Positions 2,077-60,656 of a stretch of 64,000 bases of DNA are shown here, one piece after another. How positions within the stretch are numbered: the first letter of the stretch is position 1; every line of letters begins with the position of its first letter. Source of the DNA: Thermothelomyces thermophilus ATCC 42464 (taxonomy: Eukaryota > Ascomycota > Sordariomycetes > Sordariales > Chaetomiaceae). A program made the translations under genes and the position numbers. The notes below the pieces were generated by a model. It was not told where the DNA came from. It saw only the letters and a program-made list of their open reading frames with translations, and ran no database searches. The stretch covers positions 186,001 through 250,000 of the forward strand of contig NC_016473.1 in the NCBI RefSeq assembly GCF_000226095.1. Reading direction: 5' to 3'.

Positions 2077-2536
2077 TGTCACGAGCCAACCATATACCAC
2101 GACCCGGTGGGGCACAGAAGGCTAAATGAGCCACCAATCAAGAAGGGCACGAAGCAAGGCTAATATGGGATCGCTAGGGAGCACGGGCTACCACGGGCGA
2201 ACAATTGCCAAAAAGGGAAAGATAGCAAAGGATAGCTAGCTACCAAAGGCAATCTAAGGACAGGATAGAAAGGGACTATAAGCGATCGGCAGAAGTATAT
2301 ATATATATAAATAGTTACTCATTATAGTAGACTCTAGGAGTTCACTAGTGATAGTAACTACAACCTATAATCACAAGTACTTATACTAAGCATTACTAAC
2401 CATTATAGGAGATAACTCTAATGTTATTATAAACCCTTTAGCTTTACCAAATCCCTTAGACGACTTATACGTTTGTCCCGTTTAACCTACCTTCGTCTAA
2501 ACCCTTTTAGAAGAAGTCTAAGTTAGGTTTATTACA
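2077..2536 (+). repeat. Gy1 5' LTR (type B)
   Basis: Begins TGTCACGAGCC and ends TTTATTACA, the RIP form of TTCGTCACA. The U3 part up to the TATA box is the type B version shared with Gy3 and Gy7. The part after the TATA box is common to all Gy types. U3 holds several GATC-centred motifs. Confidence 0.93.
2296..2358 (+). promoter_or_regulatory. Gy1 LTR core promoter and predicted RNA start
   Basis: An alternating TA run (about 2296-2312) serves as a TATA box. About 35-50 bp downstream lies AGTGATAGTAAC (2347-2358). This 12-mer is exactly complementary to 2538-2549, one base beyond the LTR. In Tf1-type self-primed elements the RNA 5' end pairs with the primer-binding site, so I place the start of R at or close to 2347. 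That is inference; position and pairing are seen directly. Confidence 0.6.
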
Positions 2537-2537
2537 C

Positions 2538-2549
2538 GTTACTATCACT
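2538..2549 (+). promoter_or_regulatory. Gy1 putative self-primer binding site
   Basis: GTTACTATCACT lies one base after the 5' LTR, where an LTR element keeps its primer-binding site. It is a perfect 12-nt complement of 2347-2358 in the LTR. No TGG-starting match to a tRNA 3' end was evident. Confidence 0.65.
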
Positions 2550-2602
2550 CCCTTTGTTCTATTATAATTCAGGACGAAGGTGATTTCGACCTTAATATTA
2601 AC

Positions 2603-8045: not shown

Positions 8046-8472
8046 TATGACGAACCCAGCTCAGACTTCTTCTAAAAGGGTTCAGACGAAGGTAGATTAG
8101 GCAGGACAAGCAGGCAGGTCGTCTAAGGGATTCGGTGAAGCCAAAGGGTTCACAACAATACTAGAGTTACCTCTCATAGTAATCAGCAATGCTTGGTATA
8201 AGTACTATAATTGTGATTGTTACCACTAGTAAACTCCTAGAGTCCACTATAACGAGTGACTATTTATATATATATATACTCCTAGGATCACTAGCAGTCA
8301 TGGTGATCATTTATACTGGCTTACCTGGCTTATATCGTAAGCTAGTGATCCTCTGTTGGGATCATTTCTTGCTAAGCGTGATCCCGTCCTGATTAGTCTA
8401 TCATTCCTTCGGCTTGATTAGCCTATTTATGCCAGTGGCTTAGGCGGCATCTGTATATATATTTCCGTAATA
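8046..8472 (-). repeat. Gy2 3' LTR (type A)
   Basis: 427 bp, the same length as its partner at 15173-15599. On the plus strand it reads TATGACGAACC to CGTAATA, RIP forms of TGTGACGAACC and CGTGACA. In coding direction it begins TGT and ends ACA. The polypurine tract abuts it at 8473 onward (read on the minus strand). Confidence 0.93.
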
Positions 8473-15159: not shown

Positions 15160-15171
15160 AGTAGTAATAAC
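15160..15171 (-). promoter_or_regulatory. Gy2 putative self-primer binding site
   Basis: The minus strand reads GTTATTACTACT one base inside the 5' LTR edge. Its complement AGTAGTAATAA occurs in the LTR at 15344-15354 (minus strand), just downstream of the TATA box. Confidence 0.6.
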
Positions 15172-15172
15172 G

Positions 15173-15599
15173 TATAACGAACCTAGCTTAGACTTCTTCT
15201 AAAAGGGTTCAGACGAAGGTAGATTGGGTAGGACAAGTAGGCAGGTCGTCTAAGGGATTTAGTAAAGCTAAAGGGTTTATAATAATACTAGAGTTGCCTC
15301 TTATAGTAATTAGCAATACTTAGTATAAGTATTATAATTATAATTATTACTACTAGTAAACTCTTAGAGTCTACTATAACGAGTGACTATTTACATGTAT
15401 ATATACTCCTAGGATCACTAGCAGTCGTGGTGATCATTTATACTGGCTTACCTGGCTTATATTGTGAGCTAGTGATCCTCTGTTAGGATTATTTCTTGCC
15501 AAGCGTGATCCCGTCCTAATTGGTCTATCATTCCTTCGGCTTGATTGGCCTGTTCGTGCTAGTAGCTCAGGCAGCATCTACATGCATATTTCCGTGACA
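15173..15599 (-). repeat. Gy2 5' LTR (type A)
   Basis: 427 bp. The coding-strand start TGTCACGGAAATAT is intact at the right edge. TATA-like sequence lies near 15393-15403. U3 carries several GATCAC/GTGATC motifs (15405-15515). Confidence 0.92.
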
Positions 15600-16812: not shown

Positions 16813-17272
16813 TATCACAAGCCAACCATATACCACGACCCGGTAGGGCACAGAAGGCTAAATAAGCCACCAATCAAGAAGGGCACAAAGCGAGGCTGAC
16901 ATGGGATCGCTAGGGAGCGCGGGCTACCACAGGCGAACAATTGCCAAAAAGGGAAAGATAGCAGAGGATAGCTAGCTACTAAAGGCGATCTAAGGACAGG
17001 ATAGAAAGGGACTATAAGCGATCGGCAGAAGTATATATATATATGAATAGTCACTCGTTATAGTAGACTCTAGGAGTTTACTAGTGATAGCAACTATAAC
17101 CTATAATTACAAGTACTTATACTAAGTATCACTGACCATTGTAGGAGACAACTCTAGTGTTATTGTAAACCCTTTGGCTTTACCGAATCCCTTAGACGAC
17201 TTATACGTTTGTCTTGTTTAACCTACCTTCGTCTAAACCCTTTTAGAAGAAGTCTGAGTTAGGTTCGTCACA
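16813..17272 (+). repeat. Gy1 3' LTR (type B)
   Basis: 460 bp, the same length as the 5' LTR. Starts TATCACAAGCC (TGTCACGAGCC after RIP) and ends TTCGTCACA, followed by the target duplication AAGGT. Confidence 0.93.
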
Positions 17273-19526: not shown

Positions 19527-19744
19527 AATTTATAGCCACTTTAATAGCCTTTTAGCTAGTAATTTAAATAGTAGTATTTTCTACTAAACTACCGGTTTAT
19601 CGTCTTTAAATACTATAATAACTATTACTAACCAACAGATAGAAGACGTAAAACGCGAAGTATCTATTGCCTTAGTATAAGTACTCTAAACGCCAAATAA
19701 GTCTATAGTATTTGATAGGCTATAAAGCTCTTTAACGTTTTAAC

Positions 19745-19949
19745 AACCCCTAGTTCCGATAACCTCTAGTTCTAATAACCTCTAGTTCTAATAACCTCTA
19801 GTTCTGATGACCTCTAGTTCCGACAACCTCTAGTTCCGACAACCTCTAGTTCCGACAACCTCTAGTTTCGACAACCTCTAGTTCCGACAACCTCTAGTTC
19901 TAATAACCTCTAGTTCTAACAACCTCTAATTCTAATAACCTCTAGTTCC
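19745..19949. repeat. Minisatellite of 16-bp units (about 12.8 copies)
   Basis: Units follow AACCTCTAGTTCCGAC with transition variants. Because 16 is not a multiple of 3, all frames are visited and three units encode a 16-residue peptide repeat containing PLVP and TTSSSDNL. Whether it was ever translated as part of the transposase is unknown. Confidence 0.9.
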
Positions 19950-20192
19950 TCTATATATATTAATAGATATAAAAGACGATTTTAAAGAATATCCCTAGTA
20001 TATGATATAGGGCTAGCTTAATTCCTTTCTACCTAGAGAAAATCCTTAGTTACTACTATCTAAAGACTCCCCTATTTCTCCTAGCTTTACGATATTCCTC
20101 TAAAACGCTAGGTTACTACTTTAAAAGAGGACTCCCTAGTCTTATATATTAATAATATTACCTTAATTATACTTAACTAGGAGCTTATTAAT

Positions 20193-20632: not shown

Positions 20633-21089
20633 TATAGAGCACCTAGTTGTTTAGTGCCTAAACCTACTAAGAAGTCAAATGTAGGAATCCTAGGAAATAT
20701 AGTTATAAAGGGACCTAGACCTCATTTTATAAGGTATAGGGGCCTATAACTATCGTTTAGTAAGGAAGGTTCTATAGTAGCTAATAGACCTAGGGAGGCT
20801 CCTAGAATACTACCTTATAAGGAGGCTAGACCGGGAGGTAAGGCCTCTATAGGGCTATTCTAACTACTTCTCCTTTTCTTTATAATATATTAGTATTTAG
20901 GATTAGGCATTAAAGATGGGATAGAGGTTTTTATCTAGCCTATTTAGTATAATCTCTATTATATATAACTAGAAAGGCTTTAGTATATTTATTAATTATC
21001 ATTATTATTATTATTATTAGTCCTATACCGTTATACTAATAAGCATGCCAGAGCCTCTCTAGTTATATACAAAAGAAACCGTGCCTAAT

Positions 21090-24000
21090 AGGCCGGATAA
21101 AAACCTCTATCCTACCTCTAATGCCTAATCCAGAGTACTAATACACTACAAAGAAAAGGAGAAGTGGCTAGAATAGCCCTATAGAGGCCTTCCCTCCTAG
21201 TCTAGCCTCCTTACAAGGCGGTATTCCGGGAGCCTCCCTAGGTCCATTAGCTACTATAGAACCCTCCTTGCCAACCGATGGTTATAGGCCCTTATACCCT
21301 GTAGAACGAGGTCTAGGTCCCTTTACGACTGTATTTCCTAGGATTCCTACGTTCAGCTTCTTGGTAGGTTCGGGCACTATACAACTAGGTGCTCTATAGT
21401 TTCCCTCCCCTGGCTATAGGCATAGTAGGAGGTACTAACCCCTAGAACTTAAACCCTAAATAGGAAGTTACAGAAGCTAATAGCCCCTATATAGGCCTAT
21501 ACTAGTAGGGAGCTTTAGGCCTTCGTTAGGCCCTAGTGCCTTTATAGGCCTTCCCCTATAAAAACTAGGCGTGGGGGGTCTTTGTCCGACATATGCTATA
21601 TCCTCCTACCGGCTTGGTCGGCCCTCTATTAGTTGCTCTAGCTGGCTAACATGACTAGTTCTATAGCCTATAGCCTTCTTTATAGGGTCTATAGAGGGGG
21701 TTAACCCCCTTTATAGCCCTTCTAAACCTATTACTAGACTGTTAACCTTATTACCTCTAGGGCTATAGGCTTTAGCTCCTAGCCCCTTGCCCTTGCCCTT
21801 CTCCTCTGGAACTTCTGGCTTAGCCTATTATAGGCCTACTAGATAAGAGCCCTTATAGGGACCTAGGAGACCCCTAGACCTACCCTAGTCTATAAGAGCG
21901 GTTAGTCAAGTTTAGCTTCGAAGTTAGCTAGCCTCTTATTAAGATAGAGGTTAAGGGGCAGCACCTAGGCTTCTATTTCGAGGCACTAGATAGGGGTAGC
22001 CTTATGGGCCCCGGTAACTACTTGAAAGGCCTTATATTAGGCTTTCTATAGTTCCCTAGCAGGGCCTTCTAGCTTGCCCCCTAGCTTAGTAGGCTTATAG
22101 AAGTTCGAGGCCCTATAAGCTAGGGTGCTACGGATATACTTAGTATAGACCTTATAGGCCTATAGGAGGCTAGGGCCTTAGGTCTTTATAGTAAGCCTAG
22201 TTAGGGTAAACTCCTAGTTTTCTAGCTTCTTAGCTACCTTTATATAATAGGGGCCCTACTATAGCCTCTAGTCTAGCCAGACCCCTAGGAATCTGGCCGA
22301 CTTTAATAGGGCTATAGTAATAGTACCCCCTCTAGGCTATAAGAGCTCTAGCAGTTATAACTACTATTTCCGGCCCCTATTAAAGTAGATAAGTTTGTAC
22401 TTTTCTAAGGCAAAAGCTATACCCTAGGTCTTTACTTACTATAGGTAGGCCTTCTAAGCCCTCTATAGCTAACCGTTATAAGCCTCCTCGGCCCTCCTAA
22501 AGGCTAGAAGGTTAGTATTATTAGTAAAGCCTATTAAACTAACTATAGGGTAAGCCTAGCGAATGGCTTAGTAAAGAGAGGCTATATAGAGGATAAATAG
22601 TATAAGGGAAAGGGGTGACCCCTAGGGAACCCTAGCCCTTATTACTATATCCTCTATTTCCTAGCTATCGAAGTAAAGGATAGCTACCCTATCCTATAGC
22701 TACTCCCTAACCTAGACCATTAGCTACTTTAGGAAGCCTTAGCTCTATAAAGTAACTAGTAGCTAGGTATAATTAATAGTATCGAAAGCCCCTAAGATAT
22801 TAAGCTATAAGAGGGAGGTAGCCACCTTATACCTTTAAGCCTCCTAAACCTAGGCTATAACAAGCTAAAAGGCTAGTTCGGTAGACCTATATTCCTAGTT
22901 ACCTATTTGTTCGGTCAGGAGAGGCCTATAGGCTTCTATAACGGCCGTTACCTTCTAGGTAACTATAGCCTCTAGTACTTTACCTACTATTAGTAGGAGC
23001 GCTATAGGCCTATAGCTACCTAGGGTAAAGTAGGCTTATAGGGGTTTGCTAGGCTTATAGAAGACTATTATCTTAGCCCTTTTAAACTAGGCTAGAAAAT
23101 AGCCAAGCTATAGGCTCTCTAAGGCTAGTTTAGCTAGTATCTAGTAGAGTAGCCGCCTATAGGCCTTTAATAGGCCTATAAGGAGGAGGTCCTCCCCTAG
23201 GGCTTTCTATAGGGCCGCCTTAGCTAATACTACCTTAACTTTACCTACTATAACCTCCTAGCTTATTTTAAACTTTAGCTCCTAGTAGTCATTTAGATCT
23301 AGGTTATTAATATCTAATAGGTCTACTTCTAGGTTTAGAAAGAACTTATTAGCCAATGCTCTAGCCTTCTATTAGTAGGTTATAAGCCCTCCTTCGAAGG
23401 CCAAGAGCTTTAGAGGGTCAACCGGTAGGTAGCTTTATAGCCTTACCTACCTCTCTAGCCTCTATAGTAAGTCCGGCCGGTTAGTTACCTCTTATAATAT
23501 AGCTCTCTAGCTCTTAGTCTTCGTAGCTATAATGGTCCTAGCCTAGTCCTATAGGGCCTGCCGAAGCGCCTCCTATATATAGAGGTTTAAGGTACCCCTA
23601 TAGGCCCTCTCTACCTCCTTGGCCCTCTTCCGGGCCTCCCGAACCTTCTTTGTCTACCATCGAGCTCGTTTACTACCTGTACTAGCCTTCTTTACCAGGG
23701 CCGAGACCGTAGCTATCTCCTCGAAGGCCTCTATAAGCCTGTCGAAGGCCTATAGAAGCTCCTCTAGGCCCCGGAAGACAGGCCCGGCCGGGGCCGATAC
23801 CTACCTACCAAGCCAGAGTAAGAGGTAGGCCGCCTTGGCCTACGTGACCTCCTCGTCTAGGCTCTTCTAGTCCTACCCTTTACTAGCTAGTATAGGCCCT
23901 TTGGTCCCCTAGAGGGAGACGTTTAAGGCCTATAGGTAGTGGTCGGATTTCCTATGTTCCGTGATGTCCCTATAGGTCGCTTCTAGCCTGGCCAAGACCT

Positions 24001-24553
24001 AGAATAGGTCTATTATAGAAGGTTAGCTATATTAGTCCCCTTAGGGAGCCCTAATGACCTAGCTATATAGTATATATAGGTTAAGGTCCTATTAGTCTAT
24101 GAGGCTAAGAAGGTCTTTAGCCCCTAGGCTAAGCCTGTCAAATAGGTCCTAGACTAGGTAGTAGAGGTTAAAGTCACCTATAAGAACTAGGGGGTAGGTT
24201 AGCCAAGGTAAGGCTAGTAGGTCCTATAAAAGGGCCTATTTACCCTTATTATTATAGACTAACTAGAGTTTAAACCCCTTCTCTCCTAGGGCCGGAAAGG
24301 TTACCCTATACTAGTTTTCCTCTACTAAATGATCCTATTAGCTAACCGGGAAGCGCTTAGCCACTAGAATAGCTATTTTACCCTTAGGCTCATAAACTAG
24401 GTAGTATTTTAAAGCCTAGGGGTAGTATACTAACCCTATAAAATGGTTAATCTATAGTTCCTAGATAGCTAATAGGTTATATTTAGCCTCCTCTAGTAGG
24501 ACCTCAAGGGCCTATTTATTACCTTAGGTATTCTACTAAAGGATCTTAATTTA
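21090..24553 (-). pseudogene. LINE-c ORF2 remnant: endonuclease, reverse transcriptase, C-terminal zinc motif
   Basis: The minus strand begins with an APE-type endonuclease: an IQEPW-like motif with stops for Gln and Trp near 24445, and GDFNLYY near 24160-24190. RT motifs follow: SYRPIALL (about 22990-23025), an FDT region (about 22765-22800), GSPLS.ILF (about 22600-22640), and the active site at 22515-22532 reading GFTNNT where FADDT is expected (Ala-Asp-Asp to Thr-Asn-Asn). Near 21350-21440 the frame shows ETIEHLVV.CPN, the Cys/His motif seen at the ORF2 C-terminus of Tad-like elements. The RNase H position was not fixed. Boundaries are approximate. Confidence 0.8.
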
Positions 24554-24589
24554 CATTCGAGGTAACCGGAGCAAAGGCCGAAGGTATAG

Positions 24590-25935
24590 TAATAGGCTCT
24601 ATAGCTATTACCCCCTCGGCCGGTTACGAAAAGGAGGGGGTTCTGGGCTATAGGAAAGAGATATAGGTCTATTAGGCGTCGAATAAGGCGCTCCTAGCCA
24701 TCTACTAGGCCAGGGTAGGCCTCTTATAGGGGTATTTAGCCCTAGTTTAATAGTGGTTATCGTCTTCTAGCTAGCTACTAAACTCGAAGGCTACCTTCTA
24801 ATATAGTTACTCTAATAATTAAAAGGTCCGGGGTCTATACTAGTAGGCCTCTCTAGCCCTCTCCTAGGCCTCGACTTTCTTTAGGTAGCCCCTATACTAG
24901 GTAGTATAGGGGCCCCTATAGGCTATATACCTACAAGGGAGTTAGTTAGAGTAGGTAGAGCACTAGGCCTCCCTAGTCTTCCCCCCCTTCCTATAGGCCT
25001 TTATACTATAATGGCTATGATAGGCCGGCTACTAGTAATACCACTAGGTATAGCTAAAGCTCTAGTACCTATAGCATTACCTCGGCTTTAGAGCATCCTA
25101 GTAGGGCTCGTAGTCTAGCACCTGGGCATCCTAGACTACGCCCTTATTATAGGCCTTCTAGGCCTCTTCGAGGTCCTATAAGCCTAGGAGTATTATAGCC
25201 CATTTCCTTTATAGGCTCTTTAGTAGCCAGAACTTAACCGTTTCGATCAAGTGTAGGCCTACGGCCCCCTTAAAGTTTTGTTTACTAACCCCCTATAACT
25301 CTTCCTTCTAGACTCCTTTAACTAGGACTATATAGGCCCTACTAACCTCCCTAGCCTCCTCTCTAAAGGCTATAGCCACCTATCGCTTATTAGCCAAATA
25401 CTAATCCTTAGTAGCCTTATCCTTAAAGACTACCACTATATCCCTACTTAAGAGCTTCCTAGCTGTAACGGCTCCCTAGCGGCTAGAAGCCCTGTTAACT
25501 ACTTAGACTATCTTGGCCGGGGTTTAGGCTTTAAGGTCCTCCTATAGGCCTACGTTCTACATCGTAACCTCCTATAAGGCCTATAATAGCACTGCCTTGG
25601 CCGATAGTAGGCCCCCCTAGGGGCCTATTACCCCCTATTACGAGCTTACGGCTACCTATACCTAGGTAGGGCAGGGGGTAGCCTTAAAGGCTTCTTTAAG
25701 CCCCTTTTTAACTTCCTCGGCCACGAGTTCTTATAGGTTCGGAACCAGGCCTATAATAGTAATTATAAGGCTCTATAAGAGCCTATTAACAAGGTCCTAT
25801 ACCCTACCCTATTCAGGGCTTAGTATAAGATTAACTAGTTATATAATAAGACCCCTTAGTTCCTTAATATCTAAGGTAGGGTAGGCCTATAGTAGGCCCC
25901 CCTTTAATTAGTTCGAAGCTATAGGCCTCCCTACT
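24590..25935 (-). pseudogene. LINE-c ORF1 remnant (zinc-knuckle nucleic-acid-binding protein)
   Basis: The minus strand encodes an ORF1-type protein: an N-terminal charged region (EELVAEEVKKGL-like, about 25690-25740), a middle segment of about 200 residues, and three CCHC-like knuckles between about 25090 and 24900. Tad-like ORF1 proteins bind element RNA and carry such knuckles. Stops are those expected from RIP of Gln and Trp codons. Ends are approximate. Confidence 0.65.
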
Positions 25936-25939
25936 TAGT

Positions 25940-26206
25940 GGCTTAGCGGTAGGCTTTAAATTGACGTTACGTTTAGGGGCGCTAGGTAGTCTATACGGTA
26001 AAAATTTTTAACGGGCGTATGAGGTACGGTCGGATTGTGGTCGGGTCCGGTTTCTATGGCTATGATACCTGTTATATACCCGTAAGGGCTCGTACGTGGT
26101 TGAAAGTGGTACCGTTAGATAGCGTTTTTCGAGAGCTTTCTAGTGATAGTAGTTTTGTATATTTTGGTGGGGTATTTATAAAGACATAAGAGAAGCTTTC
26201 CCTTTT
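25940..26206 (-). other. LINE-c 5' UTR
   Basis: Less TAG-rich than the coding part; it still holds CpG and TpG. The matching segment of LINE-d at 26411-26660 is colinear on the opposite strand, so this is the true element 5' end. No clear promoter motif was recognised. Confidence 0.6.
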
Positions 26207-26256
26207 TATATTTATTAATATAGTAATATAAGACTAATAATAATAATAATAATAAT
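26207..26256 (+). repeat. 3' terminus of LINE-b with (AAT)7 tail
   Basis: Starts with the target duplication of LINE-c, then ATATAGTAATATAAGACT and seven AAT units. It matches the LINE-a end at 1300-1353 and proves that LINE-c interrupted LINE-b. Confidence 0.85.
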
Positions 26257-26410
26257 TAAATTATAAGATATTAAAGAAAAGGTAAAATATATATAAGTAT
26301 TATAAAATATATTTAAGTAAGTAAAGCTACCTATACTTTTAACCTTTAACTATATATAGAGGTAGCTAAATAATACTACCTATAATTAATATTATAGAAA
26401 TCCCCCTGTC
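26257..26410. other. Short AT-rich spacer between LINE-b/c and LINE-d
   Basis: About 150 bp, very AT-rich, with no repeat match recognised in the window. It separates the head-to-head 5' ends of LINE-c and LINE-d. Confidence 0.4.
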
Positions 26411-26660
26411 GGAAAAAAGCTTCTCTTATATCTTTATAAACACCCTACTAAAATCTACAAAACTACCATCACTAGAAAGCTCTTGAAAAACGCTATCTAA
26501 TAGTATTGCTTTCAATTATATACAAGCCGTTACAGGTATATAATAGGTATCGTAAGTATAGGAGCCGGACCTAGCTATAATCCGACCGTACCTTATACGC
26601 CTATCAAAATTTTTCACCATATAGACTACCTAGCGCCCTTGAATATAACGTCGATTTAAG

Positions 26661-28090
26661 GCCTATTACTAAGCCACTAAGTAGGGAGGCCTATAGCTTT
26701 AAACTAATTAAAGGGGGGCCTACTATAGGCCTACCTTATCTTAGATATTAAGGAGCTAAGGGGTCTTACTATATAACTAGTCGACATTATATTAAGCCCT
26801 AAATAGGGCAGGGTATAGGACCTTATTAATAGGCTCTTATAGAGCCTTATAACTACTATTATAGGCCTAGTTCTAAACCTATAGGAACTTATAGCCGAGG
26901 AAGTTAAAAAGGGGCTTAAAGAAGCCTTTAAGGCTACCCTCTACCCTATCTAGATATAGGTAGCTATAGGGCTATAATAGGGGGTAATAGGTAGCTATAG
27001 GGCTATAATAGGGGGTAATAGGCCGCTAAGGGGGCCTACCATCGGCTAAGGCAGTGCTATTATAAGCTTTATAAGAGGTTATAATATGGAATATAAGCCT
27101 ATAGGAGGACCTTAAAGCCTAAACCCTAGCTAAAATAGTCTAAGTAGTTAATAAGGCTTCTAGCTACTAGGGAGCTATTATAGCTAGGAAGCTCCTAAGC
27201 AGAGATATAGTAATAGTCTTTAAGAATAAGGCTACTAAGGATTAGTATTTAGCTAATAAGCGATAGGTAGCTATAGCCTTTAGAGAGGAGGCTAGGGAGG
27301 TTAGTAGGGCCTATATAGTCCTAGCTAAAGGAATCTAGAGAAAGGAACTATAGGGGGTTAGTAAGTAAGACTTTAAGGGGGCTATAGGCCTTTAGTCGAT
27401 CGAGACGGTCAAGTTCTAGCTACTAAAGAGCCTATAAAGGAAGTAGGCTATAGTACTCCTAGGACTATAGGACCTTAAAGAGGTCTAGAAAGCCTATAAT
27501 AAGGGCGTAGTCTAGGATGCTTAGGTACTAGACTATAAGCCCTACTAGGATGCTCTAGAGCTAAGGTAGTGCTATAGGTATTAGAGCTTTAGCTATATCT
27601 AGTAGTACTACTAGTAGCTAGCCTATTATAGCCGTTATAGTATAAAGGCCTATAGGGAAAGGGGGAAGACTAAGGAGGCCTAGTACCTTACCTACTCTAA
27701 CTAACTCCCTTATAGGTATATAGCCTATAGGGGCCTCTATATAGCCTAGTATAGGGGCTACCTAAAGAAAGTCAAAGCCTAGGAGAGGGCTAAAGAGGCT
27801 TACTAGTATAGACCCTAGACCTTCTAACTACTAGAGTAACTATATTAAAAGGTAGCCTTTAAGTTTAGTAGCTAGCTAAAAGATAATAACTATTATTAAA
27901 CTAGGGCTAAATACCCCTATAGGAGGCTTACCCTAGCCTAATAAGTAGCTAGGAGTACTTTATTTAATACCTAATAGACTTATATCTCCTTTCTATAGCC
28001 TAGAGCCCCCTCTCTCTTATAACTAGCTAAGGGGGTAATAGCTATAGAGCCTATTATTACTATACTCTTATCTTCCGTTCCGGCTACCTC
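26661..28090 (+). pseudogene. LINE-d ORF1 remnant
   Basis: Plus-strand counterpart of the LINE-c ORF1. A frame with ELIAEEVKKGLKEAF lies near 26880-26930. Three CCHC-like knuckles lie at about 27553-27760, the first reading CYRY.SFSYI (Cys and His positions changed by RIP). A frame change lies around 27050-27100. Expected role: chaperone and binder of LINE RNA. Confidence 0.65.
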
Positions 28091-28096
28091 GAATAT

Positions 28097-29049
28097 GAAT
28101 TAAGATCCTTTAATAAAATACCTAAGGTAATAAATAGGCCCTTAAGGTCCTATTAAAGGAGGCTAAATATAACCTATTAGCTATCTAAGAACTATAGATT
28201 AACTAGTTTATAAGGTCGATATATTACCCTTAGGCTTTAAAATACTATCTAATCTATAAGCCTAAGGGCAAGGTAGCTATTCTAATGGCTAAACGGTTCC
28301 TAATTAGCTAATAGGACTATTTAGTAAAGGAGAACTAGTATAAGGTAACCTTTCTAGCCCTAGGAGAAAAGGGGTTTAAACTCTAGTTAGTCTATAATAA
28401 TAAGGGTAAATAGGCCCTTTTATAGGACCTACAAGCCTTACCTTGGCTAACCTACCCCCTAGTTCTTATAGGTGACTTTAACCTCTACTACCTGGTCTAG
28501 GACCTATTTGACAGGCTTAGCCTAGGGGCTAAAGACCTTCTTAGCCTTATAGACTAATAGGACCTTAACCTATATATACCCTATAGCTAGGTTACTAGGG
28601 CCCTCTAAAGGGACTAATATAACTAGCCTTCTATAATAGATCTATTCTAGGCCTTGGCCAGACTAGAAGTAACCTATAGGGATATTATAAGATAAGGGAA
28701 GTCTAACTACTACCTATAGGCCCTATATATCTCCTTCTAAGGGACTAATAGACCTATACTAGCTAGCAAAGGGTAGGACTAGAATAGCCTAGATAGGGAG
28801 GTTACGTAAGCTAAAGCAGCCTACCTCTTACTCCGACTTAGTAGATAGGTATTAGCCCTGGCTAGGCCTATCTTCTAAGGCCTAGAGGAGCTTCTATAGG
28901 CCTTTGACAGGCTTATAGAGGCCCTTAAGGAGATAGCTTTGGTCTCGGCTCTAGTAAAGAAGGCTAGTATAGGTAGTAAACGAGCTTAATAGTAGATAAA
29001 GGAGGTTTAAGAGGCCTAAAAGAGGGCTAAGGAGGTAAAGAAAGCCTAT
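28097..29049 (+). pseudogene. LINE-d ORF2 remnant, part 1: endonuclease
   Basis: APE-type endonuclease frame: KEAKYNLLAI followed by TAG-Glu-Leu-TAG (former IQEPW, about 28160-28200), KPKGKVAIL, KGFKL, and VLIGDFNLYY near 28462-28491. It continues to the linker before RT, where Gy3 is inserted with duplication CCTAT (29045-29049 and 59200-59204). Confidence 0.8.
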
Positions 29050-30103: not shown

Positions 30104-30525
30104 TGTCACGGAAATATACATGCAGGACGCCGCCTGAGCCGCCTTCCCCGACAAGCCAATGGGATAACAGGCACGAACAGACTAATTAGGAAAGGATCAC
30201 ACTTGGCAAAGTGATCTATACACTATAGGATCACTATTATAGCCGTAATCCAGACAACAAAGGATCACTAGATAAAGAGTAATCCTAGGATTATATATAT
30301 ATATAGATAGTCACTCATTATAGTAGACTCTAGGAGTTCACTAGTAGTAATAATCACAATTACAGTACTTATACTAAGTATTACTAATTACTATAAGAGA
30401 TAACTCTAAGTATTATTATAAACCCTTTAGCTTTACCAAATCCCTTAGACGACCTGCCTACCTGTCCTGCTTAATCTACCTTCGTCTGAACCCTTTTAGA
30501 AGAAGTCTAAGCTAGGTTCGTTATA
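30104..30525 (+). repeat. Gy4 5' LTR (type A')
   Basis: Starts TGTCACGGAAATATA and ends TTCGTTATA. U3 has five GATCAC/GTGATC-like motifs between 30194 and 30290. A TATA run lies near 30292-30304. AGTAGTAATAA (30343-30353) pairs with 30527-30538. Confidence 0.93.
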
Positions 30526-30526
30526 C

Positions 30527-30538
30527 GTTATTACTACT
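30527..30538 (+). promoter_or_regulatory. Gy4 putative self-primer binding site
   Basis: GTTATTACTACT lies one base after the 5' LTR. Eleven bases are complementary to AGTAGTAATAA in R (30343-30353); the twelfth differs by a transition. Confidence 0.62.
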
Positions 30539-34161: not shown

Positions 34162-34269
34162 CGATGCCCCTCCTTTAGGTCTTTTATCTTTAAAAGACTC
34201 TAGTCCGTTTTAAATAGCGCTAATATCCCCTGTCTATATATAATTGCGTTTCCTAGTTTCTTCCTTCCT

Positions 34270-34932
34270 TTGTCTTCCTATGATGTTATCGAGATAGCTG
34301 ATTATATAAGAAAGAAGTCGAAATCTAAACCTGCTATATCGACTCTTTATGCTAATTACCTTCTTACAGCGATTCTTTCTTTAGATAGCCTTTTAACGAT
34401 ATATCCTTGTTCGCCGTGTAAGTCTAAAGGCCTTAGTTTATATGAGGTCTTAAAAGCCGACTCTTCTTAATATGTAGAGTACGTCTATAACAAACGCTCA
34501 AATTATAACGTTCTTGGCGTTTCCCTTGCTTAGCTTCGTTCTATTGTAGCTTAGCATTAGAAACTTAAGGATAAACTTATAGCTGCTAAGGAGCGAGTCC
34601 TTTGTCTTCGGAAACAAAAGTAGATATAGTTTGAGAAGATGATGAGGGCTATTGCTTAGGGTATTGATAGTGTGGAGGAGTTGGAACGAGTGGAGCGTGA
34701 GGAGGCTGAGGCGGCGGCGGCAGCAGAAACTTCTAGGGTTACTACGTCTTCTTCGACCCTATCTTATTTGTCTGCCGATTTCGGGTAGCTTTAGGATACT
34801 ATATATCCTAAAGTTCCTTTAGATCTATCCTTACTAGCCGATTTCGGGTTGGTTTCTAGTCTATCGCTTTTAGTTAATTAGGGTTCCTCTAGTAGAACTG
34901 CTGAAGTTTCTTAGGGTAATTTAGATTCTTAA
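34270..34932 (+). pseudogene. Gy5 antisense ORF (aORF type C), best preserved copy
   Basis: Opposite to pol. A single frame runs about 220 codons; its stops are all TAG or TAA, mostly at positions that would be CAG, CAA or TGG. The first 66 codons are open. PCSPCKSKG (about residues 48-56) begins a Cys cluster; later YVEYVYNKRSNYNV shows Tyr at likely Cys positions. The C half is a coiled coil: LIAAKERVL.LRKQK, FEKMMRAIA, SVEELERVEREEAEA, then a poly-Ala/Ser stretch. The start is unclear: TTG at 34270 aligns with the ATG of other types. Cellular role unknown; a nucleic-acid-binding or regulatory protein is only a guess. Confidence 0.72.
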
Positions 34933-37900
34933 TAGGTTCCTATAAGTTATCTTCTAGTCTAAAATCAAGCTATTTAACTAGATATTATAGTTCTCTATTG
35001 ATGACTCGTAAATTTAAGATTTCTTTAATGTCCTATTCTTCCTCTTTGTCTTCTACTTCGATATTTATAATGACTTTGGCGTTCTTTGGTGCTAGCTCTA
35101 AGAGTAAAATATGAAAAACGTCTGTCTATAGTCGTATAGATGATGGTAACGATAGTTGATAGTTAGATGTCGAGATTTGCTCTTTAATAACAAATAGTCT
35201 TAATTTTTTGAAGTCTAGCTTCTTGCTTAGTCGTTTGGTTTATAGGTATTATAAGATTAGGTAAACTTTGTCTCCCCTCTTTAGGCAAGGTCCCTTAAGC
35301 CTATGTTTATTATAGTAGTTCTTTATCCTTGTTTTAACAAACTCGAGTTCCTTTTTAAGCTTTTTATATAGTATATATATTTGTTCTACTTTGACTGCTG
35401 CTCTCGGCACTATGATCTCTGGTCCTTGTCTAAGGTCTGCTTTATATCCGTAGTTCGTAAAGAATGGTATAACCTTGGTCGTTTCCGTTGGCATCATATT
35501 ATAAGCGAGCTATACTATTAGCAATAGTATGACCTAGTTATCTTATTAGTAGTTGACGTAAGAACGGAGATACTATTTGACGATTTGGTTTAGTTACTTT
35601 GTTTATCTATCGGTCTATAGGTAATATACCGTTGACAGTTTGCTATTAACGCCTAATCGTTATATTAACGCTTGCTAGAATTTCGATGCGAATTTGGTGT
35701 CTCTGTCGGTAATCTATTCTCGCGGCCAAGCGTACACTGATGTAACTTGCCGATAGATTACATCTACTAACTGTTCTGCTGTCTAGGACTCCTTGTAGGG
35801 AAAGAAGTATGCCTATTTAGTTAGGCGATCTACTATAGTGAGGATGCTGTTATAGACTACTCCTGTGGCTATGTGCTTAGATTCTAGCAGCTTTGTAATA
35901 AAGTCTATCGTGACCGAACTCTATGGTTTGTCAGGTATTGGCAGTGGCTAAAGTAGCCTATACGGCTTGTATCGTGCCGTTTTGCTTCGGTTATAGATGT
36001 TATAGCTTCGTACGACTTCCTTAACTTGTACCATTAACTGTGGAAAGTCGTAGTATTTCTTAACTTGTACGATAGTTTTTATGACTCCTTTATATCCTCC
36101 AAGTTTCGACTCGTAGAGTTCTCGAATCATTTGTAGCTATTAATCCCTATTATAGATGTATACTTTGCCTCGGTACTAGAGTTTCCTATCTCTTTCTTCT
36201 ACTTCGTTAGGTACTAGTAGTCCGGGTGCTACTTGATACTATACCTTGTTAATCCTTTCTTCTTAAAAGATTACGTAACATTCTAGGAATGAGTTAAGTA
36301 GATCATCTTCTACGGGTATCTACGTTTCGTAATGTAATGTCCCGTCTATTTGTTCCTTAAATAACGGTGGCGTTGTTTCTGTTTGTCCTTCTATATAACC
36401 TATTTATTAGCTTAAGATGTCTGCTTGTACATTTTCCTTGCCTTTCTTATAGTAGATCTTAAAGTTAAATTCTATAAGGAATTCTGCCTATCGTATTTGT
36501 CGTCCGTTAAGCTCCTTTATCATTATAAAGTATCGTAGGTTCTTATGATCTATATATACTTGTACTAGTTCGATCGTGCCACTAAGGTATAGTCGCTATT
36601 CCTTAAAAGCTTTAACAATCATAAGTAGTTCCTTGTTATAGATTGGATAATTGAGACGTGGTCTGTCGAGCTTCTTTAAAAAGAAGGCTATAGGATGTAG
36701 CTTTCCTTGTCTGTCTCGTTATCCTAATTGTCCTCCGATAGCGTAGTCTGAAGCGTCTGTTTCTACCTCAAATGGCCTCTTAGGGTCCGGTAGTACTAGT
36801 ATTAGGTCTTTAGTAATGGCGTCGCGGATCTATATAAATGCTTGCTTATATTGTCCTTCCTATTAGAATTTAGTATTCTTCTTAGTAAGTTTATATAAAG
36901 GTCGTATAATCGCTCTAAAGTTCCTAATAAACATTCGGTAGAAGTTTGTAAATCCGATGAAGCTTTGTACTTCTGTAACTATTGTTAGTCGTGGCCAATT
37001 CTTAATAGCTTTAACCTTTAAAGGTTCTATCTAGATTTATCCTAGGGATATTTCGTACCCTAAAAATACCGTTTTCCGAACGTAGAATTTGCTCTTTTCC
37101 TTGTTAACTGATAGCTTATACATATATAGCGTGTCTAGCACTACTCTTATATACTTCCGGTGTTCGTCCATCGTCTTAGAGAAGATAAGTATATCGTCGA
37201 GATAATATATCGTAAATTTGTCGAGAAAGGGTTAGATAGCTTGATCAATTAGGGCTTAGAATGTTGCCGGCACGTTTGTAAGTCCGAATGGCATGACAAG
37301 GTACTTATAGTGGCTATAGGATATCCTAAAGGCCGTTTTCTACTCGTCGCCTTCTTTGATCCATATATGGTTATAGGCCGATGGCAAGTCAAGACGTGTA
37401 AAATATTAAGCTCCTACTAACTAATCTCGGAGCTATGAGATTAGTAGTAATAGGTATCGGTTTTTTATAGTCTGTTTGTTAAGTTGCCGATAATCAATAT
37501 ATAATTGTAGCTTTCTATCTTTCTTTGGCATAAATAGGATTAGGTAGCCTGCTAGTAATGTCAACGGGCGGATATATCCTCTTCGAAGGTTCTCCTCTAA
37601 ATATCGCTTAAGTTCTTCGTTCTATGTCTAGCTTATATAGTAAATCTTAAAGAACTTTAGTCGTATTCCTTCCTTAAGCTTGATCTTGTAATCCTATAGG
37701 CCGTGTTCTGGTAGCCCTTCTAGATGTTTCGGTTCAAATGCTAGGTGTCCTTTATATTCCTTCGGTACTTCCCTAGTCTTGTCTCGTCTCTCGGTTTTCT
37801 AATAATATATAAACTTGGTTCTATCTATAGTAATGCTGGCGATTTCTCCTGTCTTGACCTACTACTCTAGTTATAGTACTTTACACTTATTAACGGAGAG

Positions 37901-38556: not shown

Positions 38557-40779
38557 TTAATGGTTTCCGGGCCCCTCGAAGGGCCCTGACCTGTTTCCTA
38601 GGTCAGTGCTAACCTCTTTAGTCGTTTAGCTAATAGTAGCTTTGTCTATTATGCTCATTTCCATAAGCTATTAGGTGCTTGTAGCTTCCTACTATTAGGT
38701 CTGTTTTGCTTTCCGTCATATATACTATAGCTTTATCTAAAGCTCCCGAATTCGCAACTTTTTTTCATCCGTGTAGTAGAGGTAATCGTTATTCTAGTAT
38801 AAGTCCTATATGTCTTGTCCTGTTCTATAGTACCTAGGCCAGGCCCGTTTTAGAACTATCGTGATGCCTTCTAGACTCTAGTCTTTAATCTTCTAGAGCA
38901 ATTCGGCCGCTCTGTTTCCTATATCGTAGACCTACTCTACTAGGTATAAGCTTCCGTCCTCATTTCCTTGTTAGGTCGGCTAGTAGTTGTTCTCGAATTT
39001 GTCGTAGAAGTAATATTAGCATTTATATACTATATATTAGAACCAAGGCACTTGCATATATACCTCATGTCAAGGGTACAATCGTATAGCGTTACCTAGG
39101 AGGTATTAGAATTCTCTCCCGAATCCTTCCTACTATATATAGACTGTAGATACTCTAATGCTAAGGTAGGAGTATTTCTTCTAGTAGCTTTCCCACGTAC
39201 GCTCGTCTTTTCCGCGGTTTGCGCGTATAAACTGATATTCTAGGTTCTATATATCGTTACTAAGTTACTGATCATCAAAGCACTCGGTGTAGCTGTCAGG
39301 TCTATCATATACTATAAGCTATTCTCCTTTGATAGTTTCTACGATATGTCGGAGTTCCCTTGTCTTGTCCTTTATCTTATCACTTTACTAGGCAAGTTAA
39401 GTCAAACGTTTATCCCGTTCGTATAATTCCGTATTAAGCCGGAAAACTTCATTACGGTACCCTTCGATTTGTTCCTAGAGGAATAGAACATTAGGTCCGG
39501 GTCTTTTAGTTCCTTGGGTGTCGGTCGTCTATGATCTATCCTGCCTCTATGTGATCGTGAAACCCCACTGTCTTAAGGCTAGGAGAGTCGAAATTGGTAG
39601 TACGTACTCTCCTGCCGTGTCCTATTTAGCAAGACCTGTCTCTAGGTTCATAGTGACTAGTTTGGAGTATAGTACTTGTCTATCTTCTCTATTACTATTA
39701 TGTCTAAAACTATCTATATCGCTATCCTTGTCTTTGTAGCTTGTAGCTACTACTTTGGTAATGTTCTTAGTAGTTTCGTCAATGTCTGCGATTTCTTTTC
39801 TAGGGACTAGCTTCTACTCTTTCTTTAGGCTTTGGCATTCTTGCTTATAGTGCCCTTTCTTTCTGTAGTTATAGTAGGTAACATTGGACTTGTCTTTGGT
39901 TATCTTCTTCTAGTCCTACTTCTATGCTATGTCTATATCTATAGCTCTAGGGTATGTCCTATACGAAGTACTGACATACGTTCGCTTTTTCTTATTATTA
40001 GCCTTAACTATAGTTCTATTTGTTTGACCTTGTTTTTACTACTCTTATATATAGAGCTAATCATTAATTCTAATAGCCTATATAATATATTTATCTAAAG
40101 TCTTAGGCCGATCATACTTATATAGCTTATCTTTGACCTTTTCCTTTAGGCCGTTATAGAATAATTATATTAATACCTTGTCATTAAGTTAGGACTTGAA
40201 TATGTCCTATCCAAACTATACGGTATAAGAGGCTACTAACTTGGTCTATCGGAGATTAGCAAGTCTTTCTTATATATGAATTTTCTCGTCTTTGTCGCTA
40301 AAAACCTTCTGAAGCTCTTCTTCGAAGCAGTCATAAGATCAGAAGACTGCCTATATAAACACGTCTTAGTCGTCTTTATCTTCCTTAGTAAGATAGTCAT
40401 TCTATATAGGCTTAAACCATCTAAGTGCCTTGCCCTCTAGTCTCGTAGCTATATAAAGGACTTTAGCTTTTTCGTCTAGAAACTTGTCATTATTAAGCCA
40501 AAAGTAAGATCGGAGGTTAGTTAGAAATCCTATAAGATCTTCCTTAGTTCCTCTATATTTACTAGGTAATTCGATCTTAATATAGCTTACTTTAACAGTT
40601 TTAAGTGTCTCGATTTTAGCGTAGGCCTCGTTAATTAATTTCTACAAGTACTTTTCGCCGTTCTCGAGTTCCTTGATTCGAGCTTAAGCAGCCTTGTCTC
40701 TCTAGTCTAACTCCTAGATCTGCTACTAGAGTTAACTAAGCTAGGTAAGCAGTTATTTGGCCGTGACGTCGGTAGCTAT
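38557..40779 (-). pseudogene. gag: Gy5 gag remnant
   Basis: 2223 bp. Start codon reads ATA at 40779-40777, stop TAA at 38559-38557. The CCHC knuckle (about 39835-39885) reads YYNYRKKGHYKQEC. The frame is continuous through the post-knuckle region: the codon that reads TAA in Gy1 at 3815 is TGG here, showing that the long extension belongs to Gag. Confidence 0.9.
38569..38599 (-). promoter_or_regulatory. Gy5 candidate -1 frameshift signal
   Basis: In coding direction: AGGAAAC (38599-38593), spacer AGGTCA, arms GGGCCC (38586-38581 and 38574-38569) with loop TTCGAG, then the gag stop at 38559. The geometry is that of known -1 signals: slippery site, 5-9 nt, stem. Confidence 0.6.
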
Positions 40780-40832: not shown

Positions 40833-40844
40833 AGTAGTAACAAC
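40833..40844 (-). promoter_or_regulatory. Gy5 putative self-primer binding site
   Basis: Minus strand GTTGTTACTACT, one base from the 5' LTR. Its complement AGTAGTAACAA is present in the LTR at 41018-41028 (minus strand), an 11-nt match in the least mutated copy. Confidence 0.65.
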
Positions 40845-40845
40845 G

Positions 40846-41267
40846 TATAACGAACCTAGCTTAGACTTCTTCTAAAAGGGTTCAGACAAAGGTAGATTGA
40901 GTAGGACAGGTAGGCAGGTCGTCTAAGGGATTTGGTAAAGCTAAAGGGTTTATAATAACATTTAGAGTTATCTTTTATAGTAATTAGTAATGCTTGGTAT
41001 GAGTACTGTGATTGTGATTGTTACTACTGGTGAACTCCTAGAGTTTGCTAGAGTCCGGTGGAACGAGTGACTATATATAATTCCCTGTCCTTCCTTTTTG
41101 AGTCTTGATCGTGCGATCGCTGCTATGGTCCTGCGATCGTTACCTAAGTGCTTATCTTGATCGAAGTGCGATTACTACGATCACTTCCTGATTAGTCTTT
41201 AGGTCTTGTGGTTCCTGATTGGTCCTATGTGCCTTGCTGGGTCGCCTTATATAGCTAAATTGTGACA
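40846..41267 (-). repeat. Gy5 5' LTR (type C)
   Basis: 422 bp, equal to the 3' LTR. U3 type C with GATCGC/CGATCA words. The short TATA element is GTATATA-like near 41072-41080. Ends TTGTGACA on the plus strand. Confidence 0.92.
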
Positions 41268-42470: not shown

Positions 42471-42898
42471 TATAACGAACCTAACTTAGACTTCTTCTAA
42501 AAGGGTCCAGACAGAGGTAGGTGAAGTGGGACAAGTAGGCAGGTCGTCTAAGGGATTCGGTAAAGCCAAAGGGTTTATAATAACACTTAGAGTTATCTCT
42601 TATAGTAATTAGCGATGCTTGGTATAAGTACTATGATTGTAATTATTACTACTAGTGAACTCCCAGAGTCTACTATAATAAGTGACTATTTACATGTATA
42701 TATACTCCTAGGATCACTAGCAGTCGTGGTAATCATTTATACTAGCTTACCTAGCTTATATCGTGAGCCGGTGATCCTCTATTAGGATTACTTCTTGCCA
42801 AGCGTGATCCCGTCCTAATTGGTCTATCATTCCTTCGGCTTGATTAGCCTATTTGTGCTAATAGCTTAGATGGCATCTGTATATATATTTCTATAATA
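42471..42898 (-). repeat. Gy6 3' LTR (type A)
   Basis: 428 bp. Plus-strand edges TATAACGAACC and CTATAATA, RIP forms of TGTGACGAACC and CCGTGACA. A stem GGCTTT/AAAGCC lies at 42916-42934, next to the polypurine tract. Confidence 0.92.
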
Positions 42899-43024
42899 TA
42901 ATGCCCTCCTTCTAAGGCTTTCGACCTAAAAGCCCTCTTTTAGGCCGTTTTAAATAGCGCTAATATCCTTTCTATATATACCTCGTAATTTTTCCCTTTT
43001 CCCGTACTACTAGCAACTAACAAG

Positions 43025-43690
43025 ATAGTAGATCGTATTTCTAAGCGCCGATCCTCGAAATCCTAACAGCGCGCCACGCTTGCTTCTTTTATTGATTCTT
43101 CTGGCGTAGACGTCATACCGTGTTCGTGGTACTTTAAGCGGAACTTAGCTTGTCGTATAGCATTAGGCTCTTTTTGCTATAGTGAGTGCGTACGTCAGGG
43201 TCGTTCTTACGATGGTTCTAATGTAGCGTCTACTTATTCATGACCTAGTTTATTGCCTTAATATTTATAGCTAATTCTTTATAGTAACGAAGATTATATC
43301 CGAACAAAAGCGTATAGAATAAGAAGAGGCCGATGCTAAAGAGGCCCTCTTTGTCCTTTAGACTTAACTTTAGACGGCTGTCGGTCGATTAGCTCGTCTT
43401 TATCACCAGAAACGTTTCTTAAAGGAGCAGGGTTCCAAGCTGTTTCGTCGAGGTATACAGTCTCTAGAGGAAATAGAGGCAGAAGAATAGAGGGTACGGG
43501 AGTCCGAAGCACGTGTTATTAGTGATGTACGGTCCTAAGGTGCTAACGTCCTGTTTGACTAGTCTTCTTTAGGCCTAGATTTGTCGGAGGCTGACTTGGC
43601 TATTTTGTCTAAGCCAGTGCCTATAGTTAATCTAGGTTCTGCCGGTGGAACTGTTCTAGTTTCTTAGGGTAGTTTAAGTTCTTGACTAGT
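43025..43690 (+). pseudogene. Gy6 antisense ORF (aORF type A)
   Basis: Close relative of the Gy2 copy. Start ATA (former ATG). SECVRQG at 43185-43205 keeps one Cys of the cluster. The frame changes around 43230-43280. Then comes a coiled coil: EQKRIE, EEADAKEALFVL, RLARL.HQKRFLKEQ, LFRRGIQSLEEIEAEE (about 43295-43490), followed by an acidic, Asp/Ser-rich tail. Overlaps the antisense of the pol chromodomain region at its end. Function unknown. Confidence 0.62.
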
Positions 43691-47308: not shown

Positions 47309-47310
47309 CG

Positions 47311-49533: not shown

Positions 49534-49599
49534 ATCGATGTCAAGGTCAAAGTCACCTCCGTTCTAAACTATAATAGAATAAAGGGAGTAGTAATAACG

Positions 49600-50027
49600 T
49601 ATGACAAACCTAACTTAGACTTCTTCTAAAAGGGTCTAGACAGAGGTAGGTAAAGCGGGACAAGCAGGCAGGTCGTCTAAGGGATTCGGTGAAGCTAAAG
49701 GGTTTATAATAACACTTAGAGTTATCTCTTATAGTAATTAGCGATACTTGGTATAAGTACTATAATTGTGATTATTACCACTGGTAAACTCCTAGAGTCT
49801 ACTATAACAAGTAACTATTTATATGTATATATATTCCTAGGATTACTAGCAGTCGTGGTAATCATTTATACTGGCTTACCTGGCTTATATCGTGAGCCGG
49901 TGATCCTCTGTTAGGATCACTTCTTGCTAAGCGTGATCCTATCCTGATTAGTCTATCATTCCTTCGGCTTGATTGGCCCGTTCGTGCCAGTGGCTCAGGC
50001 GGCATCTACATATATATTTCCGTGACA
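49600..50027 (-). repeat. Gy6 5' LTR (type A)
   Basis: 428 bp with the intact coding-strand start TGTCACGGAAATAT. R contains AGTGGTAATAA against the site complement AGTAGTAATAA (49587-49598), one mismatch. GATCAC/GTGATC motifs are present in U3. Confidence 0.92.
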
Positions 50028-58733: not shown

Positions 58734-58745
58734 AGTAATAGTAAT
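58734..58745 (-). promoter_or_regulatory. Gy3 putative self-primer binding site
   Basis: The plus strand reads AGTAATAGTAAT, one base from the 5' LTR. The LTR minus strand contains AGTAATAGTAAC just downstream of the TATA box: 11 of 12 identical, the last differing by a transition. Confidence 0.62.
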
Positions 58746-58746
58746 G

Positions 58747-59199
58747 TATGACAAACCTAACTTAGACTTCTTTTGAAAGGGTTTAGATAAAGGTAGGTTA
58801 AGCGGGACGAGTGTACAGGTCGTCTAAGGGATTCGATGAAGCTAAAGGGTTTATAATAACACTAGAGTTATCTCTTATAGTAGTTAATAGTGCTTGGTAT
58901 AAGTACTATAATTATAAGTTACTATTACTAGTAAACTCCTAGAGTCTACTATAATAAGTGACTATTTATATATATATATACTTCTGCCGATCGCTTATAG
59001 TCCCTTTCTATCCTATCCTTAGATCGCCTTTGGTAGCTAGTTATCCTCTGCTATCTTTCCCTTTTTGGTAATCGTTTGCCTGTAGTAGCCTGTACTCCCT
59101 AGTAATCCTATGTTAGCCTTGCTTTGTGCCCTTCTTGATTAGTGGCTTATTTAGCCTCCTATGCCCTACCGGGTTGCGGTATATAGTTGGCTCGTAATA
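58747..59199 (-). repeat. Gy3 5' LTR (type B)
   Basis: 453 bp; edges TATGACAAACC and CTCGTAATA on the plus strand, followed by CCTAT. Alternating TA box at about 58968-58981. U3 is as in Gy1 and Gy7. Confidence 0.93.
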
Positions 59200-60138: not shown

Positions 60139-60590
60139 TATTACAAGCCAACCATATACCACGACCTAGTGGGGCGCAGCAGGCTAAACGAGCCACTAAT
60201 CAAGAAGGGCACGGAGCAAGGCTGACACGGGATCGCTAGGGAGCACAGGCTACCACAGGCAAACAATTGCTAAAAGGGAAAGATAGCAGAGGATAGCTAG
60301 CTACTAAAGGCAATCCTAGGGCAGGCTAGAAAGGGACTATAAGCGACCAACAGAAGTATATATATATATAAATAATCACTTATTATAATAGACTCTAGGA
60401 GTTTACTAGTAATAGTAACCTATAATTATAATATTTATACCAAGTATTGCTAACTATTATAAGAGACAACTCTAATGTTATTATAAATCCTTTAGCTTTA
60501 TCAAATCCCTTAGACGACCTATATACTTGTCCTACTTAATTTACCTCTATCTAAACCCTTTTAGAAGAAGTCTAAGTTAGGTTTGTTATA
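60139..60590 (+). repeat. Gy7 5' LTR (type B)
   Basis: 452 bp from TATTACAAGCC (TGTCACAAGCC after RIP) to GTTTGTTATA. TATA run near 60357-60370. R contains AGTAATAGTAAC; the site after the LTR complements it with one mismatch besides a RIP-type change. Confidence 0.92.
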
Positions 60591-60656
60591 TATTGCTATT
60601 ACTCCTTTTATTTTATTATAGCTTAGAATAAAGGTAATTTCGACCTTAATATTAAT

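Follow-up and report, generated by a model that had tools for sequence, protein, structure and literature searches.

Putative self-priming chromoviruses with a matched primer and primer binding site in Thermothelomyces thermophilus

Self-priming elements and the elements of the window

Most LTR elements use tRNAs as primers. To our knowledge, most inferences of self-priming have relied on one or a few copies per family. The closest described systems are Tf1 and Tf2 of Schizosaccharomyces pombe, which, in the available parts of PMC7175516 and PMC10085805, have a chromodomain integrase and no tRNA primer, and use an 11-nt primer at the 5′ end of their own RNA with a primer binding site (PBS) beside the 5′ LTR. 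In Tf1 pairing involves the first 11 bases, and the RNase H cut falls between nucleotides 11 and 12 (PMC7175516, available part). For Tj1 of S. japonicus, self-priming was proposed from primer/PBS complementarity (PMC4600332, available part). Maggy, Skippy, Cgret and sushi-ichi belong to the cluster of fungal and vertebrate chromoviruses for which the accessible text of PMC10085805 and PMC6317226 states self-priming as a group feature.

The elements analyzed here share with Tf1 and Tf2 an 11-nt primer, presumably at the RNA 5′ end, a PBS beside the 5′ LTR, a chromodomain integrase and no tRNA primer. They differ from both in that the 11-nt PBS starts 2 nt after the LTR's CA and in that most copies read are RIP-damaged. 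Like Tj1 they are assigned by primer/PBS complementarity; transposition of Tj1 has been tested in cells, whereas our elements are known from sequence alone. The likeness to Maggy, Skippy, Cgret and sushi-ichi is one of description and not of compared primer letters. In the literature that our search could access we found no report on this element, by which we do not claim absence from print.

We consider it highly probable that we have here Ty3/Gypsy chromoviruses whose reverse transcription is self-primed in the manner of Tf1 and sushi. This reading, already put forward in the first-pass annotation of this DNA, is the best-supported one because the pair is concordant in 559 of 560 junctions, the duplex is 11 nt long as in Tf1, no match to 43 tRNA sequences rises above chance, and the chromodomain and the placement of the reverse transcriptase (RT) of one open-framed copy agree with it. 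That we are dealing with a new member of the self-priming chromoviruses, and not with a new kind of system, is well supported.

The window, i.e., the whole stretch of 64,000 nucleotides analyzed here, contains several Ty3/Gypsy elements, and the host genome searched comprises 38.7 Mb in seven contigs. Four elements with both LTRs inside the window are about 7.5–7.6 kb long each, Gy1 being counted without Gy2, which is nested inside it. LTR borders were set by TGTCAC...CA ends and 5-bp target duplications (one with a single C/T difference); the terminal CA is frequently mutated to TA and is followed by two letters, CG or a mutated form of it. The sequence is heavily mutated, with a TA/AT ratio of 1.5–2.3 and depletion of CA/TG, and all differences between the LTR pairs of the four elements are transitions (35/35, 47/47, 46/46 and 41/41). 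Transition-only differences together with CA/TG depletion are the mark of RIP. The following features were located in Gy1:

2077..2536, + strand: 5′ LTR (TGTCAC...CA), 460 bp; AAGGT, the 5-bp target duplication, lies on both outer sides of Gy1
2296..2310, + strand: TATA run of the LTR, 36–50 nt upstream of the primer site
2347..2357, + strand: putative self-primer copy, type B, presumed RNA nucleotides 1–11
2358..2366, + strand: variable junction after nucleotide 11/12 (2–9 nt from nucleotide 12, six length classes, 157/159 copies parsed)
2537..2538, + strand: spacer of 2 nt, CG, separating the LTR's CA from the 11-nt PBS
2539..2549, + strand: putative PBS, type B, complement of nucleotides 1–11
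16813..17272, + strand: 3′ LTR; a purine run and CATCG stand before it
17083..17093, + strand: primer copy within the 3′ LTR, type B

The window also holds other repeats. A 16-bp tandem repeat array spans 19711–19981 (12 overlapping register copies listed), and an inverted-repeat unit of about 230 bp at 20900–21131, with arms of 13 and 17 nt, is possibly a small non-autonomous element. A large inverted pair at 23600–29049 (arms 23600–25659 and 26987–29049, 87% complementary in two pieces) consists of two opposed copies of another repeat; between its arms lies a 14-bp inverted repeat (26186–26199/26416–26429).

The primer/PBS pair and its junction

An LTR stretch complementary to the site behind the 5′ LTR had been noticed in the first-pass annotation, and we found both sequences in the window where it had placed them. 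The 11-nt PBS begins 2 nt past the CA of the 5′ LTR and pairs with nucleotides 1–11 of the LTR stretch, perfectly in five of the seven LTR/PBS junctions of the window and with one mismatch, at the RIP-prone position 4 or 9, in the other two. Besides Gy1, the following sites were assigned:

15344..15354, − strand: Gy2 putative self-primer copy, type A
15160..15170, − strand: Gy2 PBS, type A
8217..8227, − strand: primer copy within the Gy2 3′ LTR, type A
30343..30353, + strand: Gy4 putative self-primer copy, type A
30528..30538, + strand: Gy4 PBS, type A
41018..41028, − strand: Gy5 putative self-primer copy, type A (type C in the first-pass annotation)
40833..40843, − strand: Gy5 PBS, type A
49772..49782, − strand: putative self-primer copy, type A, of the element at 42471–50027
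49587..49597, − strand: PBS of the element at 42471–50027, one mismatch at position 4 (G.U)
58919..58929, − strand: putative self-primer copy, type B, of a further element
58734..58744, − strand: PBS, type B, of the same element
60408..60418, + strand: putative self-primer copy, type B, of the element starting at 60139
60593..60603, + strand: PBS of the element starting at 60139, one mismatch at position 9 (U.G)

For five mutually related elements, the complement of the 11-nt site was present once in each real LTR and appeared in 1, 9, 1, 1 and 1 of 4000 dinucleotide-shuffled LTRs. We then used 159 distinct junctions, which were the best hits to four window queries and not a random sample (162 before three identical rows were dropped; only hits spanning both primer and PBS were used). 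Over 11 nt, 36 of them paired perfectly, 75 had one mismatch, 39 two and 9 three, and 153 of the 180 mismatches lay at positions 4 and 9. If the elements are self-primed, RIP has to account for the imperfect junctions.

Hundreds of copies in one genome offer a natural test of whether primer and PBS stay matched. We scanned the whole genome with four RIP-tolerant patterns, which miss any junction whose pattern, nine letters upstream of the primer included, has been lost. This gave 264 B/B, 295 A/A, one B/A and no A/B junctions (primer/PBS), i.e., concordance in 559/560, with reversed-pattern controls at 0 in all four scans. The sole discordant junction, a B primer with an A PBS, lies at G000:C3:4217654-4217865. 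A search for relatives confirmed 0/4 pattern matches in viral contigs and 0/48 in genome contigs.

The pair had previously been given as 9–12 nt long; its complementarity stands, its 12-nt Watson–Crick length does not in type A, where it is 11 nt. In this type nucleotide 12 was T in 74/74 copies and the opposite base G in 64 and A in 10, and we therefore rejected a 12-nt Watson–Crick duplex; were a U.G wobble counted, the pair could reach 12 nt, so that 11 is not strictly proven. In type B, nucleotide 12 was C in 84/85 copies and the variable stretch begins after it. In two open-framed families (one copy each, both ends) the pair AGTGGTAACAA/TTGTTACCACT is exactly 11 nt long. The pair length of 11 nt is set from the letters of the copies and nothing else. 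In the same copies CG stands after the CA of the 5′ LTR and before the TG of the 3′ LTR, and CG on both flanks would suit two-letter trimming by integrase at both ends.

Behind nucleotide 11 the copies vary in length. Up to a common anchor we counted 2 nt in 74/74 type A copies and 3, 4, 5, 8 or 9 nt in 83/85 type B copies, the other two B copies being unparsed. There were thus six length classes (157/159 copies); no other 20-nt segment that we checked had more than three. On a weak tree the junction required 23 changes, against 0–16 in eight other segments, the 16 belonging to segment 2407–2427. That the junction is an indel hotspot is moderately supported.

We propose the following course of priming. 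RNA synthesis would start at the LTR copy of the 11-mer, which may thus mark the RNA start. RNA nucleotides 1–11 would fold back on the PBS 2 nt past the 5′ LTR, in line with the complementarity seen there. As in Tf1, RNase H of the RT would cut after nucleotide 11, and the freed 11-mer would prime minus-strand DNA. Minus strong-stop DNA would then end at nucleotide 12 and transfer to the 3′ R region. Since the element's own RNA supplies the primer, any change in the primer calls for a change in the PBS or brings one about by itself, and the two sides would therefore stay matched.

Types A and B: covariation, descent and RIP

Positions 5 and 8 distinguish the types. Checking covariation on a larger set of copies, as had been proposed with the first-pass annotation, we found the same type on both sides in 144 of the 159 junctions (AG 76, GA 68), opposite types in none and one-sided loss of the letter in 15. 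True covariation is limited to these two positions. Types were called from the primer, or from the PBS if the primer was unclear; primer columns hence differ by construction, while PBS columns were free to vary.

When we compared 74 A with 85 B copies, 9/431 columns differed by more than 0.8: two primer columns, one junction column, two PBS columns and four elsewhere. A-like letters occur at 2469 and 2584 in twelve of the B copies, six of which are A-like at 2400 too. Between these six and the 74 A copies, a difference above 0.7 was found at only 6/431 columns: primer positions 5 and 8 (by construction), two columns at the nucleotide 11/12 junction and the two complementary PBS letters; the three marker columns served for selection and are excluded as evidence. 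The two subfamilies thus differ strongly only in primer, junction and PBS. The other six intermediate B copies differ from A at fourteen columns. A type switch confined to primer, junction and PBS fits a rewriting of the PBS, and one old event followed by descent fits too.

The history of the types is short. A gag tree of 64 copies needs 3 type changes, 2 of which are forced by starred branches, and all 29 A copies fall with five B copies into one 99% clade. On the 159-copy tree the starred branches likewise force 2 switches and the best tree has 8. Its two supported independent pairs go in the same direction and are too few, leaving a sign test without power. Independent type switches were few, perhaps 1–3. 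Copy L038 looks like a recombinant with a B LTR and PBS on an A body.

Among the alternatives, common descent survives best. One old double change may have been inherited by all type A copies, which would show that pairing once mattered and tell us little beyond that, and we regard this as possible, if clearly the lesser chance. The single clade with all 29 A copies and the few switches required speak for it, and L038 looks like an ordinary recombinant of the kind just described. Yet strong differences occur nowhere but in primer, junction and PBS, on an otherwise matching background, and a joint change of two sites about 190 nt apart still demands a reason. Moreover, common descent limits the statistics but offers no alternative function. 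Within self-priming, a tentative reading is that the copies are a fossil record in which the primer rewrites the PBS in each cycle, since plus-strand DNA would copy the primer RNA. Matching would then be mechanical rather than the result of slow selection, so that a primer change and its PBS copy would appear together with the U5 between them unchanged, and the nucleotide 11/12 indels would be the scar of minus-strand transfer from the cleaved RNA end. We hold this bolder reading to be possible but less likely than not.

RIP can imitate covariation. A CA of the PBS and a TG of the primer copy represent one RIP target seen on opposite strands, and the preferred context is a G following T. With the same target on both arms, C–G pairs become T–A pairs on both sides, which mimics compensation. 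At position 4, the R side was changed in 114 of the 159 junctions, the PBS side in 96 and both in 70, with 68.8 expected under independence; at position 9 the counts were 82, 75 and 37, with 38.7 expected. These joint counts match independence, i.e., separate RIP hits, and we rejected covariation at both positions. The changes that the first-pass annotation had seen side by side on both arms hold at positions 5 and 8, whereas at positions 4 and 9 RIP struck the two arms independently. Independent RIP damage also explains why Gy1 differs from Gy3 at position 4, and it explains the AYAA/TTRTT letter given there for types A and C.

That covariation altogether is a RIP by-product, with both arms decaying in step and only looking compensated, is very improbable. 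Positions 4 and 9 are RIP contexts, vary within both types and are hit jointly as by independence; the LTR pairs of the four window elements differ by transitions alone; and of the 15 one-sided losses of the diagnostic letter at 5 or 8, 14 are to A, pointing to RIP at a low rate there. Against this, the types differ at 5 and 8 on both sides and in opposite directions (one position has G in type A and A in type B, the other the converse), neither G at these positions is preceded by T, type A letters are present in open-framed copies, and concordance holds throughout the genome (559/560). We hence rejected the by-product explanation for positions 5 and 8 and accepted it for positions 4 and 9. 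In inverted repeats, the work of RIP looks like compensatory base-pair change, and in RIP-active fungi CA/TG sites should be excluded from covariation counts.

Primer choice, leader RNA and proteins

A host tRNA, or an internal tRNA fragment, might prime instead, with the LTR match as a structural or packaging signal. We screened the post-LTR site, as had been suggested earlier, against 43 tRNA sequences from 40 loci (65 places listed), a set in which some isoacceptors are missing and initiator Met is absent from the labels, and no match went beyond chance. The best Watson–Crick runs at the seven window junctions were 7–8 nt, with shuffles at a mean of about 7 and a maximum of 8–10, and runs with tRNA 3′ ends were 5–6 nt. 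With G.U pairs allowed the best run grew to 9–11 nt, which favors a tRNA, but the PBS does not start with TGG and the Watson–Crick runs in this incomplete set equal those of shuffles. On these 43 sequences we rejected tRNA priming and give it only a slight chance.

The fold of one little-mutated copy was mapped on the 159 copies, with controls slid by one to three columns, which paired in 14–68% of cells overall. The primer/PBS helix was paired in 94% of cells and a hairpin in R in 89%. Two further stems are predicted beside the PBS (Gy1 coordinates):

2448..2461, + strand: U5 stem, 5′ arm, approximate in Gy1; 88% of cells paired in 159 copies, slid controls 14–45%
2516..2531, + strand: U5 stem, 3′ arm, approximate in Gy1; the stem ends near the PBS
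2551..2580, + strand: hairpin directly 3′ of the PBS; pairing in 96% of cells across the 159 copies, 39–57% in slid controls

Four other helices were paired in 91, 73, 79 and 56% of cells, the last being no better than its slid versions. The mapped stems lend support to a leader structure but are not proof, because their source was itself one of the copies and because RIP is apt to leave pairs intact. The Tf1 leader needs three duplexes, two of which join PBS-flanking and LTR sequence (PMC10085805, available part). Compared with this Tf1 "pretzel", the primer/PBS helix and a U5-side stem are present here, and a local hairpin appears where Tf1 has its third long-range duplex. Long-range pairing of post-PBS sequence with R-U5 was rejected (duplex z-scores −3.8 to +0.9 across 20 copies, with changing partners). 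That the pair serves only RNA folding, translation or dimerization and not priming is the least likely reading of all: the leader is structured and additional stems are kept in most copies, but the site occupies the place from which minus-strand synthesis has to start if the LTR end is to be defined, and we found no other primer.

The proteins agree with a self-priming chromovirus. Three of seven stop-free Gy5 fragments scanned had domain matches, and four gave nothing of note:

40402..40641, − strand: Gy5 gag fragment (DUF4939, 4.9e-9; Ty3_capsid, 0.0042, under its cut-off)
37037..37231, − strand: Gy5 reverse transcriptase fragment (RVT_1, 6.6e-12)
35948..36136, − strand: Gy5 integrase zinc-binding fragment (Integrase_H2C2, 5.7e-7)

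The domains stand in Ty3/Gypsy order, with integrase after RT. No chromodomain turned up in the seven Gy5 fragments. One open-framed copy from their lineage has RVT_1, rve (just under cut-off), SH3_Tf2-1 and, at the integrase C-terminus, Chromo (2.1e-14). In a midpoint-rooted tree of 19 rows (the query and 18 of 120 listed proteins, with no reference Tf1, Maggy or sushi sequence), its RT clusters with proteins from fungi (nine) and vertebrates (four), and those of four plants and one alga stand apart (99% SH-aLRT). This fits the position of Tf1/sushi in the cluster of fungal and vertebrate chromoviruses (PMC10085805, PMC6317226, available parts). Among the matches listed, the closest named RT belongs to Thermocarpiscus australiensis, with 84% over 57% of the query.

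Thirty RT matches of the window's lineage lie in stop-free open frames of 1264 or 1287 aa (G000, e.g., L209-L214; C1, C2, C3). Outside fission yeasts a −1 frameshift between gag and pol is usual in the Tf1/sushi group, according to the available part of PMC10085805. LTRs of the open-framed families are 100% identical and 415 and 448 bp long (two copies, both ends). It seems that these copies were missed by RIP, or that RIP ceased before a recent burst. Such open-framed, near-identical copies in the same genome make mapping of RNA 5′ ends and cDNA directly feasible. We also noticed an open frame in antisense orientation, at least 257 aa long, that lies between the stop of pol and the 3′ LTR (L216:1098-1871, − strand), gave no Pfam match and, judged by eye, contains a cysteine cluster and a coiled-coil-like stretch. 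The Gy5 fragment 34204–34470 (+ strand) is its degraded counterpart.
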